From a virus: DNA of 26,378 bases. The first letter of the stretch is position 1. The number at the start of each line of letters is the position of its first letter. The notes under the pieces were generated by a model. That model was given only the letters and a program-made list of their open reading frames with translations, had not been told where the DNA came from and made no database searches. This document shows, one piece after another, positions 1 through 25,202 of the stretch. A program made the translations under genes and the position numbers. Location of the stretch: positions 1 through 26,378 of the IMG/VR virus record IMGVR_UViG_3300031660_000048; one strand, given 5' to 3'.

Positions 1-835
1 TTAATGCTCTTCTATTATCCACTATAGTACCACCTTGTAAAGTAATAGAATCTTGGTAGTAACTGTCAGGTATTACAGCGACATAATAATTGTTAAGATT
101 GGTAGCCTTATTAATAGCTTGCATAAGAATTGCTTGTGATGCTTCGTTGGCTATTGTTAAGGCATTGGTTGTATTAGCTAAAAGAAATTGCATCTCAGAG
201 TCTTCTTCATCTTCTTCTTTGTCTTCCTCTGCTTGTTCTTCTTCAGATAAATCTCTATCTGTTGTTTCTTGTGCTAATTTAACTGCCTCATCTTCTAATG
301 CATCATAGTCAGGAATGTCAGGTATTGGAGGCGGTTTAGGTTTGACATATCCCGGACAGTTAGGGTCGCTTTGTGGGATAAAACAATTATCAAATCGGTA
401 GATGTATTTAACGTCTGCACCTTCAATGCTTCCTGTGCCTTCTTGTTTGAGTCTGCCATCACCAAATACTGCAATTGGTGTATAGGGTAATGCTATTGTT
501 CTTCTTACCTCTAGACCGCCTTCTCGTTGTGACCAATCTTGTTTATCTTGAAACACGTAACCACCACCTACCTTGTCATTCTCTAGTGTGACAACGTAAT
601 CATCTGCTTTGTTTTTAATTGGTGTGTACTTGTAAATGACTCCTGATACCTCCATACCACCAACAGCATTAGTGCCAATATAGGTTGGGTTCATTGACCA
701 CTCTAAGCCATTTAACGCTGCGTTAGGTGTGTAACCAAATGTGTAAGCAAATGTACTAAAAGAATAAGAAAGCAGAAGCAACAGCGCCCATAATCTTAAT
801 GGCACTATCCCTCTTTTCAGCAGTCGTTGCTTCAT
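1..835 (-). CDS. Exported acidic protein of unknown function, C-terminus cut by window edge
   Basis: An uninterrupted reading frame of 278 codons begins at the ATG at 835 and runs off the left edge without a stop. The start is fixed by a strong GGAGGA Shine-Dalgarno at 841-846, five bases upstream. The first 30 residues form a Sec signal peptide: basic MKQRLLKR, a hydrophobic stretch rich in Leu, and a likely cleavage after Thr-Phe-Ala. The mature part starts with an aromatic-rich domain, has a closely spaced Cys pair (residues about 151 and 158), then a Pro-rich linker (about 163-175) and a very acidic Glu/Asp segment (about 195-210), followed by a Gln/Asn/Ala-rich helical stretch. It overlaps the end of the preceding gene by 80 bases. 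I do not recognise a family. Export to the periplasm or envelope is inferred from the signal peptide; a role in host-surface modification, lysis or superinfection exclusion is only a guess. Confidence 0.82.
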   Translation of the reverse strand, partial: MKQRLLKRGIVPLRLWALLLLLSYSFSTFAYTFGYTPNAALNGLEWSMNPTYIGTNAVGGMEVSGVIYKYTPIKNKADDYVVTLENDKVGGGYVFQDKQDWSQREGGLEVRRTIALPYTPIAVFGDGRLKQEGTGSIEGADVKYIYRFDNCFIPQSDPNCPGYVKPKPPPIPDIPDYDALEDEAVKLAQETTDRDLSEEEQAEEDKEEDEEDSEMQFLLANTTNALTIANEASQAILMQAINKATNLNNYYVAVIPDSYYQDSITLQGGTIVDNRRAL

Positions 836-1331
836 GTTGTTCCTCCGGCATTGGTATTTCTTCAGTACGCACAGCCCAAGCACGTTTAGCGGAATCACCA
901 ATTAATCCATCTATTGGGCAGTATGTTCCGGCGTTAGCCATGGCTTTAAAAATCGCTGGGTCTTGACAAAGCAAAGATACGCTGGCGACTTTCATACCGG
1001 CGGAGAATAAAATCCTCGCTTTTTTTATTAGCAAACAATTGGCCTCTGTATATGTAGCTCCAAAGCTCAAGGATAAGATTTGAGTGCCTAAAGCTCCGCT
1101 AGATGAAATAGTGCATAGGTCTGAGTTGCTTCCGCCTACATTTGGAGATATGGCGCTTGGCGGTGCAGATTTTACTGTGGTCTCGTTTACGCCATTGCTT
1201 GTTACTGTAGACGTTGTGTTTTGGTTGATGGTGCTTTCTTCTGCCATGGCTGAGAAAGATAGGATCAAGAAACAACATACAATACCAAACGCAACAGCAT
1301 TGTATGTTTTGCTCCTTATTCTGTTAGACAT
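756..1331 (-). CDS. Exported hypothetical protein with signal peptide and C-terminal hydrophobic segment
   Basis: This 191-residue protein has an N-terminal Sec signal peptide: basic residues at 4-8, a hydrophobic core at about 13-27, and a likely signal peptidase I site after Ala-Met-Ala at residue 30. No lipobox cysteine is properly placed, although two Cys lie in the core. The mature part starts with a Ser/Thr/Asn-rich linker, then a conserved-looking domain (about 80-155) with Cys residues suitable for disulfides in the periplasm, and ends in a short hydrophobic stretch (about 177-191) that could insert in a membrane. Its ATG overlaps the stop of the upstream gene as TAATG, implying translational coupling. 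Its 3' end overlaps the next gene by 80 bases. Function unknown; it sits after the fibre gene at the distal end of the virion operon. Confidence 0.8.
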   Translation of the reverse strand: MSNRIRSKTYNAVAFGIVCCFLILSFSAMAEESTINQNTTSTVTSNGVNETTVKSAPPSAISPNVGGSNSDLCTISSSGALGTQILSLSFGATYTEANCLLIKKARILFSAGMKVASVSLLCQDPAIFKAMANAGTYCPIDGLIGDSAKRAWAVRTEEIPMPEEQHEATTAEKRDSAIKIMGAVASAFLFF

Positions 1332-1824: not shown

Positions 1825-4800
1825 TTATGCCTCTAGGGCGGTTATACGAGCTACGAGAGCATCGTTCTTTGTTGATAGTTCTTGTATTGCTTTTACTAGG
1901 ACTGGGATTAATGCAGCTTCTGCTACTTCCTGTGAGCCATCATCTCTGTCATCCCACATTCTAAATCCATCTTTAACACCAGCATCAGCATCAATAGCAG
2001 TCTTAACTTCCTGTGCTATGAAACCGTGGTTGGTATTAGAGTTCTTAAAGACTTCAGTAGAGTCAGCTTCATAAGCAGTGAATGTAGTTGGTAGTTCACC
2101 AAGTGTCTTGTACTTGAATGTTCTAGGTTGTAGAGCATTAACAAGACTAAGTCCTGCTGTTGAGTCTGCTATGTCTTTCTTATAGCGTTCATCTGAAACT
2201 GCTGCCCAAGTTGCAGTACCATTTGCTGCTCGTATGTCACTAGTAGAAATACCTATTGTTGTATAACCTGACTCCGAAGTAACAAGATGCCCAAGTGCGT
2301 TTGAATTATATGTACCAGCCGCCCCTACCTTTACTTTATATCCGAGTAAAGTATTCTGATATCCTGTTGTCAAGTCAGTACCATTTGCACCAGCTTGATA
2401 GCCTATCAATACATTACCGTGACCTGTAGTTACCGACTTACCAGCCTCAAAACCACTAGCTACATTATTTGAAGCTGTAGTGTTGTTATATAAAGCATCT
2501 CTACCCATCGCGGTGTTACCAGAACCCGTGGTGTTTTGGCGCATTGATTTTGTACCAACAGCAGCATTACTAACACCTGTGGTGTTAAGGAATAAAGAGG
2601 TTCTACCCAAGGCTGTGTTATATGATGCTGTGGTGTTAGCGTTTAATGCCCTCTCACCAACCGCTACGTTTTCAGCACCTGTATTAGCGTACAAAGCACG
2701 ATAACCGATTGATGTATTTTCAGAAGCTGTAGTGTTAGCTCTTAAAGACTCAAAACCAACTGCTACGTTATTAATACCTGTAGTGTTAAGATGCAGAGCA
2801 GACACACCATCGGCAGTATTATTATTACCTGTAGCGTTTGTATATAATGCTTGTTTACCTGTAGCAGTATTATTAGCACCAGTTGTATTAAAGTATAAAG
2901 ACTTTCTACCAAATGCAGCGTTTCCAGCTCCTGTGGTGTTAGAATACATAGAATAATAACCCACTGCTACATTCTCAGATGCTGTGGTGTTTGTTCTTAA
3001 AGAATTCCTACCGACTGCAACATTATCTAATCCAGTGGTATTAGAGTACATAGCGTGGTAACCGCTGGCTGTATTAGACGAGCCAGTAGTGTTAGCATAT
3101 AAAGCATCCTTACCGACTGCTGAATTATTAGAAGCGGTGGTACTAAGTTGTAATGCTCCTGAACCATAAGCTACATTAGAAGAACCTGTGGTGTTTGTTA
3201 ATAATGCACGGAAACCGCTTGCAACATTCTCTTGTCCTGTAGTATTGCTTTGTAAAGCATTCACACCTAAAGCAACATTATAAGCACCTGTGGTGTTTGT
3301 TTTTAAAGACTCTGTACCAAGCGCTACATTACTAGCACCAGAAGTAGTGTACTTCATAGCCTCACGACCAACTGCTGTATTATTAGAAGCGGTGGTGTTA
3401 TTAAGTAAAGAGTCACGACCTACTGCTGTATTATAAGAACCTGTGGTGTTAGCGTATAAAGCATTATAACCAGTGGCGGTATTGTCATTACCTGAAGTAT
3501 TGAGAGCTAAGGAAAGGTATCCAGAAGCTGTATTATAAGAGCCTGTAGTGTTAGAGTATAAAGACTGTCTACCAGAAGCTGTATTTTTAGTACCTGTTGT
3601 ATTAGTATTTAAAGATTGGTAACCAAAGGCAGAATTATAAGCACCTGTAGTATTAGCTCTTAAAGAATCTTTTCCAACTGCTACATTATTAGCACCTGTA
3701 GTGTTAGCAAATAAAGCTGATGAACCGACTGCCGTGTTGTTTGCTCCTGTGGTATTAGTTCCCATAGCACTAGTACCAATCGCAGTATTCTCTGAAGCTG
3801 TGGTATTAGCGTCTAAGGCTACAGCACCAAGAGCTACATTAGCAGTACCTGTAGTGTTAGCTGATAAAGCATCCTTACCTACTGCTGTGTTGTTACTAGC
3901 TGTGGTGTTAGCATCTAAAGCGCCTTGACCTAATGCTGTGTTATTTGAAGCAGTTGTATTGACTGTTAAAGCACCTGTACCTACAGCTGTATTTGCAGTA
4001 CCTGTGGTGTTAGCCGCTAAAGCAACTCTACCAACAGCTGTGTTGTTGTCTGCTGTGGTATTAGCTAATAATGCCTGATAACCTAGTGCAGTATTATATG
4101 CACCTGTGGTGTTAGCGGTTAAAGAAGCATAGCCCACGGCAGTGTTGTTATCTGCTGTTGTGTTAGCAAGTAAGGCACTTCTACCAACAGCTACGTTCTG
4201 CGCACCTGTAGTATTAGCATATAAAGCATTAAGACCAACAGCTGTATTGTCACTAGCTGTCGTGTTAGATGTTAAAGCAGTTCCACCTATAGCAGTATTG
4301 TACTGTCCAGAGATGTTGTCTTCTAGAGCTTTGTCACCAACAGCTGTATTAAAAACAGCGGTGGTGTTGGCAGCTAAAGACAAGTAACCAACTGCAACAT
4401 TATTTGTGCCTGAAGTAACAGCAGTCAAAGCATTATCACCCAATCCTACATTATAGTCACCAGTAGTAATTGAATCTACCGCACTAGTACCTAGTCCGAT
4501 GTTTGAGGTTGCTGTGGTTGTTATCTGTAAGCCACCGACAGTATTCGTACCGAGTACAATAGCACCTGTCATAGTGCCACCCGCTAACGGTAGCTTAGTT
4601 CCTAGTTGAGTTTGAATGGCGCTTGTAACACCATCTACATAGTTAAGTTCAGCAGGTGTTGCTGTTACTATAGTTCCATCAATCTCTAAGTCTGTTAGGT
4701 CAGGAGAAATTTGCGCTCCACCATCCAACAAGTTGTCTATTGTGTCTAAATTTGTGTTTAGTTTTGTTCCCCAAGTATCCGCAGAAGCACCGACCTCTGG

Positions 4801-4839
4801 CTTTACAAGAGCATAAGTAGTAGTAGTAGTATCAGCCAT
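1825..4839 (-). CDS. Long tail fibre / adhesin with YadA-head-like repeats and C-terminal S74 chaperone
   Basis: This 1004-residue protein has three parts. Residues 1 to about 112 are a fibre N-terminus ([19 protein letters not shown] is typical of phage fibre anchoring regions). Residues 113 to about 808 are some 41 tandem 17-residue units of the form N-[TV]-A-x-G-x-x-[AS]-[LM]-x-x-N-T-T-[GA]-x-x, the pattern of the YadA/Hia-type left-handed parallel beta-roll head, so a trimeric stalk is expected. The last 123 residues begin at SDERYKKDI (Ser882) and match the peptidase S74 / endosialidase intramolecular chaperone family, which helps fibres trimerise and usually cleaves itself off at that serine; the following Lys is the likely catalytic partner. 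A coiled coil ends the protein. GGAG lies six bases before the ATG. The role is receptor binding outside the host cell; the receptor is unknown. Confidence 0.93.
2416..4503 (-). repeat. 51-bp tandem repeats encoding the 17-residue fibre units
   Basis: About 41 in-frame units of 51 bp lie inside the fibre gene. The most conserved DNA is the segment for Asn-Thr-Thr (plus-strand gtggtgttag or variants), recurring every 51 bases. One unit near 2685-2700 is a codon shorter (16 residues, one Thr missing), and the units at the promoter-distal end (about 809-850 in the protein) become irregular. Synonymous positions vary a lot between units, so the repeat is kept mainly at protein level. Confidence 0.9.
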
Positions 4840-24612: not shown

Positions 24613-24979
24613 CAATCTTGCCGACCAATTGAATAATAGTTGGCGGCTTCATAGTTCCATCACTCGATGTTATATCTGTTTCTGTCTTAATAACTAAGCC
24701 ATGATTCGAGCTTAATGCTAGAGTTGCAGTCCGCTCTCTGAACTCTCCACTAAGCGAGCCATTCATAAGTTTTCTGCCTTGGTGTGTCATTAAAGTTCTT
24801 ACGATGTCGGAAAATTCAGGATACTTCCTCTCCCAATCGTTGACTGTATCCCTGTGAATGCCTAGTTCTAAAGCCAATCCATCAATCATAGGTATCTTAT
24901 CACCGTACTTAATATAGTTCTTTATATAGTCTTCAGCTTTCTCTAGTATCTTGTCATTATATTTACTTGGTCTAGCCAT
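24605..24979 (-). CDS. terS: Terminase small subunit
   Basis: A 124-residue protein directly upstream of terL. It opens with MARPSKYNDKILEKAEDYI and has a helix-turn-helix at about residues 31-58 (GLALELGIHRDTVNDWERKY), the DNA-recognition domain of P22 gp3/Sf6 gp1-like small terminases. A helical oligomerisation part follows (about 58-95), and a C-terminal beta/tail region ends in an acidic stretch, as needed for ring formation and contact with the large subunit. The ATG has GAGAAGG upstream and lies within the end of the previous gene (eight-base overlap). It should bind the pac site and regulate TerL; the pac site itself, often within or near terS, was not identified. Confidence 0.92.
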   Translation of the reverse strand: MARPSKYNDKILEKAEDYIKNYIKYGDKIPMIDGLALELGIHRDTVNDWERKYPEFSDIVRTLMTHQGRKLMNGSLSGEFRERTATLALSSNHGLVIKTETDITSSDGTMKPPTIIQLVGKIDD

Positions 24980-25202
24980 TTAGTTTACCTTCTCTCGGAA
25001 AATTAGTTCCAGTTGTGCCATACAATCCAACTGTCCTTGCTATATGTTTATCTATAACTTTTATTGGATCACCTGTTAGCTCTGAGCAATATTCAAGCAA
25101 GGCGATATACAAATAAGGTAATACAGTTGTGTCTGATATTTCCATTTCTGTTTCACCGTCTATGTCAAATTCATTGCCATCTATGTCAAATTTATTATCC
25201 AA
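24972..25202 (-). CDS. Small acidic hypothetical protein
   Basis: A 76-residue protein starting at a TTG (25202), which overlaps the end of ninB. A GGAGAG ribosome binding site stands six bases upstream, and no in-frame ATG occurs before residue 20, so the TTG start is well supported. The N-terminus holds a tandem FDID-Gly heptad (FDIDGNEFDIDGE), a 21-bp direct repeat in DNA, followed by an acidic stretch and a helical part with LPYLYIALLEYCSEL (about 28-42). It overlaps terS. No recognised family. An accessory to packaging or DNA processing would fit the location only. Confidence 0.68.
   Translation of the reverse strand: MDNKFDIDGNEFDIDGETEMEISDTTVLPYLYIALLEYCSELTGDPIKVIDKHIARTVGLYGTTGTNFPREGKLNG

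Follow-up and report, generated by a model that had tools for sequence, protein, structure and literature searches.

In a survey of spanins, 91 of 677 phage genomes, many of them from phages of marine hosts, had no identifiable spanin, and the survey did not settle how such phages get through the outer membrane (PMC6139136). It was suggested there that type I proteins with a C-terminal transmembrane segment might be unrecognised spanins. In the lambda Rz/Rz1 class, whose genes often sit in lysis operons, the overlap is that of the i-spanin and o-spanin genes, and there is one lipoprotein. In the pelagiphages HTVC115P (gp54/gp53/gp49), HTVC023P (gp45/46/48) and Mosig (00202/201/200), three genes, denoted here as the g1-B-C core, encode proteins annotated only as hypothetical. 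Curli (T8SS) modules occur in other pelagiphages (PMC9599517, PMC9004378). The DUF1353 family includes TtaP, a proven phospholipase A2 (PMC11525133).

We analysed a linear IMG/VR virus fragment of 26,378 bases (the window), whose portal, scaffold, major head protein, structural protein and terminase genes identify it as coming from a podovirus. A 40.7-kb record with the same gene plan (G062, locus L010) matches the Pfam families SU10_portal and SU10_MCP. At the left edge of the window, transcribed leftward and located downstream of a tail-spike gene (1825-4839) and two small ORFs, are two genes, g1 and g2. They open a conserved cassette g1-g6, and their features are the following.

756..1331, minus strand: g1, predicted exported protein of 191 aa, first gene of the cassette (ORF, family, conserved order)
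1242..1331, minus strand: g1 signal peptide, residues 1-30, MSNRIRSKTYNAVAFGIVCCFLILSFSAMA (rule-based scan; cleavage site placed by eye)
876..1163, minus strand: g1 conserved domain, approximately residues 57-152, four invariant cysteines, predicted helical (75-sequence alignment, AlphaFold2)
759..812, minus strand: g1 C-terminal hydrophobic tail, possible membrane anchor (conserved; predicted helix 170-190; hydrophobicity compared with shuffles)
842..846, minus strand: GGAGG ribosome-binding sequence for g2, inside g1 (sequence)
2..835, minus strand: g2, predicted exported protein, cut by the window end (translation, relatives)
746..835, minus strand: g2 signal peptide, residues 1-30, encoded within the end of g1 (rule-based scan; overlap kept in relatives)
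386..745, minus strand: g2 beta-sandwich domain, residues 31-150 (AlphaFold2, mostly high pLDDT; generic jelly-roll matches only)

The tail-spike gene contains many diverged NTTG..NTAVG repeats, with 64-72% DNA identity among copies, and its C-terminal region matches tail spike and fibre families.

Signal peptides were identified by a simple rule (charged start, hydrophobic core, small-x-small cleavage site). In the window, g1 and g2 were flagged strongly, and among the other 25 called ORFs there was one weak flag (24972-25202). The same rule was passed by 80 of 94 g1 and 82 of 84 g2 family members, and the g2 signal peptide begins within the end of g1 in 124 of 127 related loci, with overlaps of 50-89 bases; thus the export signals are not due to chance. 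In the window g2 starts at the ATG at position 835 of the minus strand, its frame leaves the window at the left edge, and the overlap is exactly 80 bases (756-835). The sequence-only reading, which described two consecutive Sec-type signal-peptide proteins with genes overlapping by 80 bases, was accurate in both respects.

Within the overlap, the encoded g1 tail exceeds the average hydrophobicity of synonymous g2 shuffles in all 94 loci (mean z 1.26), which are related and hence not independent, and in 47% of such shuffles a stop codon would fall in the tail. Automatic annotation can hide overlapping exported genes: the annotated start of HTVC115P gp53 (L046:6359-6560) is probably wrong, as the frame extends upstream and, where it overlaps the final part of gp54, encodes a signal peptide.

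The g1 family was observed in more than 600 IMG/VR stretches. The g1 protein has a Ser/Thr/Asn-rich stretch, the four-cysteine domain and a C-terminal hydrophobic helix, according to the alignment and AlphaFold2, and this predicted layout is that of the type I proteins with a C-terminal transmembrane segment described in the spanin survey (PMC6139136). A Foldseek search of PDB with the g1 model, of moderate confidence, gave no match (best E 5.1). In g2 the beta-sandwich is followed by acidic helices modelled by AlphaFold2 at low confidence.

The window shows only two of the five exported proteins of the cassette. Reading to the left of position 1, as the sequence-only reading had proposed, was possible through a relative, L007, whose g2 is 99% identical to that of the window and complete (296 aa). 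There the operon runs on for seven more genes. Three of them, g3 (163 aa), g4 (125 aa) and g5 (141 aa), encode signal peptides; g6 (156 aa) has one transmembrane segment and a coiled coil, g7 (65 aa) a transmembrane segment, g8 (146 aa) three hydrophobic segments identified by eye, and g9 (166 aa) belongs to DUF1353. Genes beyond g9 are on the opposite strand. Thus the placement of g1 and g2 at the distal end of the virion operon holds for the window and fails in L007. Each of the genes g1-g6 shares 4 to 80 bases with its neighbour. L010, L025, the 201-kb phage contig L026, which has a small additional ORF, and L210, a phage contig from a Rhodobacteraceae bin, all keep the g1-g6 order. Of the distinct g1 loci, 86 have 4.5 kb or more of downstream sequence, and 75 of these contain the complete ordered g1-g6; since the loci were gathered by similarity to g1, g2 or g3 with the best matches retained, which is a source of bias, and are related to each other, this and the other cassette fractions overstate its prevalence.

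No Pfam family was matched by g1-g5, and PDB searches with g1-g4 gave nothing credible. Two cysteines near the ends of the g3 protein are invariant, and a lipobox is present in one lineage (L040, L041, L183 and others). Homologs of g4 are present in 179 Vibrio phage records. A search of 84,980 bacterial and archaeal species for g5 gave only two contigs, both in a single Rhodobacteraceae bin, of which at least one is from a phage.

Directly upstream of g1, L026 encodes a 263-aa signal-peptide protein (L026:757-1548) that resembles an outer-membrane porin, ends in F and has no relative among the loci compared; L007 encodes a 488-aa protein (L007:2511-3977) similar by eye to flavin-dependent tryptophan halogenases; and L010 and L025 have 2OG-Fe(II) oxygenase-type genes in this position. 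Beside ssb, on the opposite strand, L010 also has a 64-aa lipoprotein-like ORF with an LVTGC lipobox (L010:11635-11829, minus strand), seen in L025 and L007 as well. It is a possible o-spanin or exclusion lipoprotein.

The sequence-only reading was right that no lysis gene is recognisable within the window; this is, however, simply a matter of where the window ends, as the probable lysis genes are found just past its left edge. Lysis genes were read in the relatives, and there, as judged from gene order and family matches, the cassette is part of a lysis operon: holin, endolysin, DUF1353 or lipase genes follow immediately, and the core recurs in pelagiphages. Among 63 distinct loci readable past g6, a holin or three-transmembrane g8 was observed in 51, a DUF1353 gene in 17 and a GH19/GH108 endolysin in 11. 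The clearest arrangement, g1-g6, an EF-hand transmembrane protein, holin and endolysin in that order, occurs in ten loci, and a dozen loci have the EF-hand protein placed after g6 and before the holin. A GTA_holin_3TM gene is situated two genes downstream of g6 in L210 (2.9e-24) and just upstream of the g1 homolog in Mosig (1.6e-5). In L026 a class 3 lipase gene (Lipase_3, 1.2e-23) directly follows g6. In HTVC023P an M15 peptidase gene (1.3e-14) lies four genes past the g1 homolog, and in T5-like Vibrio phages g3-g5 are followed in turn by a small lipoprotein, a T-type holin and an M15 peptidase. Against the lysis reading, six of the 63 loci with a complete cassette lack a recognised lysis gene beyond it, and in Vibrio phage D81, where g3-g4 come after the tail fibre gene, the nearest 4 kb or so contain no lysis gene.

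Also against it, g8, which is the candidate holin in the lineage of the window, is holin-like in hydropathy only, as homology to three-transmembrane holins was not supported (hhalign 6%), and no endolysin was identified in G062. A general lack of endolysins in cassette phages was rejected: Phage_lysozyme, Amidase_2, SLT and M15_3 gave one match in all, but GH19/GH108 endolysins were found elsewhere, so the absence holds, as tested, only for the SU10-like lineage of the window. The Pfam families listed for G062 (25 of 27) include a single envelope-active one, DUF1353. Elsewhere, L107 encodes a D-alanyl-D-alanine carboxypeptidase (Peptidase_S11, 1.4e-27; L107:5687-6370) shortly after the g1/g6 core, and a gene annotated as lysozyme, CRP-810 gp51 (L049:5204-5626), reads as a g6-like transmembrane coiled-coil protein ending in NPLGR and is probably misannotated.

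The cassette resembles lambda Rz/Rz1 in its place in the lysis operon, in the overlap of exported genes, in the lipoprotein signal of g3 in one lineage, and in g6, which in the relatives (it lies outside the window) is predicted from hydropathy to have one N-terminal transmembrane segment and a periplasmic coiled coil, an i-spanin-like layout. However, it has five exported proteins instead of one lipoprotein, and the long overlap is that of g1 and g2. No homology to Rz (PF03245) was found in 27 cassette records, and a lipoprotein is not obligatory: g1 and g2 of the window have no lipobox, and that of g3 is confined to its one lineage. Therefore the cassette does not belong to the Rz/Rz1 class. 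The pelagiphage core has homologs of g1 and g6 (hhalign 98.9% for g6 and the pelagiphage transmembrane coiled-coil protein) with an exported protein between them, and in HTVC115P also an overlap, whereas g3-g5 are absent. Homology of g2 to the middle protein B was not supported (hhalign 7%). As to TtaP, a DUF1353 gene (Pfam PF07087) follows the holin-like gene in the nearest relatives of the window (2.9e-11 in L007, 1e-13 in L010), and by inspection its product keeps an HD pair and a later Asp. However, TtaP is encoded in a bacterial islet and not in a phage lysis operon, and the phage protein, encoded outside the window, is a putative enzyme.

The reading that we favour, with a probability of about one half, is that g1 and g2 would open a new exported system of several components, which acts on the outer envelope during lysis and is carried, as far as the sequences tell, by SU10-like and other marine phages. 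The sequence-only reading took the secreted products to suggest a periplasmic or envelope task, which is supported, and named a superinfection block, envelope alteration and release as options. Release is the best supported of these, since in relatives holin, endolysin and lipolytic genes come directly after the cassette. The same position beside holins would also suit proteins that sense or regulate lysis from the periplasm, in the manner of antiholins or lysis inhibition, and would not disrupt the outer membrane. The EF-hand protein next to the holin and the small disulphide domain of g1 are consistent with such timing, but a set of six envelope proteins would be large for a regulator, and the moderate-confidence g1 model showed no similarity in the Foldseek search of PDB to regulators of solved structure, or to known periplasmic exclusion proteins. 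We consider this explanation unlikely.

Alteration of the envelope to keep out further phages, by superinfection exclusion or receptor blocking, seems similarly doubtful. The products are exported, and tail-fibre genes precede the cassette genes both in the window and in Vibrio phages; exclusion genes can adjoin receptor-binding genes, as does llp of T5. However, the neighbours in L210 and Mosig are lysis genes, not fibre genes, and a conserved six-gene order would be unusual for exclusion. It is still harder to see the proteins as virion components or as an extracellular pilus- or curli-like structure. This would agree with the position at the end of the virion operon, with the existence of curli modules, likewise phage-encoded exported envelope proteins of marine phages (PMC9599517), and with the pilin-like g3 and PapD-like g4 noted by eye. 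But virion assembly in the cytoplasm does not fit exported products, and a chaperone-usher pilus was rejected: hhalign comparisons with SCPU, FimA-type pilins and PapD_N gave at most 19%, from alignment of the signal peptides, and g3-SCPU and g4-PapD about 1% or less, although hhalign did recover the 98.9% relationship of g6 to its pelagiphage counterpart. No usher, CsgA/B, CsgF or CsgG family was matched by g1-g5 in Pfam.

Under the favoured reading, action on the outer envelope at lysis, we infer that the genes are expressed late and that the exported proteins would accumulate in the periplasm late in infection and form a complex. g1 may be held by its C-terminal tail as a type I protein, and g6 by its N-terminal transmembrane segment with the coiled coil in the periplasm, while g3 would be periplasmic or, in the lineage with the lipoprotein signal, anchored in the outer membrane. 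After the holin has triggered and the wall has been weakened, the complex would disrupt the outer membrane or join it to the inner one, that is, do the job of spanins. In the lineage of the window the DUF1353 enzyme, if it is phospholipase A2-like, may assist. The exported proteins would thus probably contribute to breaking the host envelope, by a route that is not known from earlier descriptions.

A broader proposal, which we put forward tentatively, is that many marine phages without Rz/Rz1 get through the outer membrane at lysis by means of a non-spanin machine of five secreted proteins and an inner-membrane coiled-coil protein; in some lineages this machine appears to adjoin a phospholipase-like or lipase enzyme. 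The cassette is a concrete, conserved and testable candidate for the breach of the outer membrane in phages without spanins, and both its core and g3-g5 are available in cultured phages, the former in pelagiphages and the latter in Vibrio phages.
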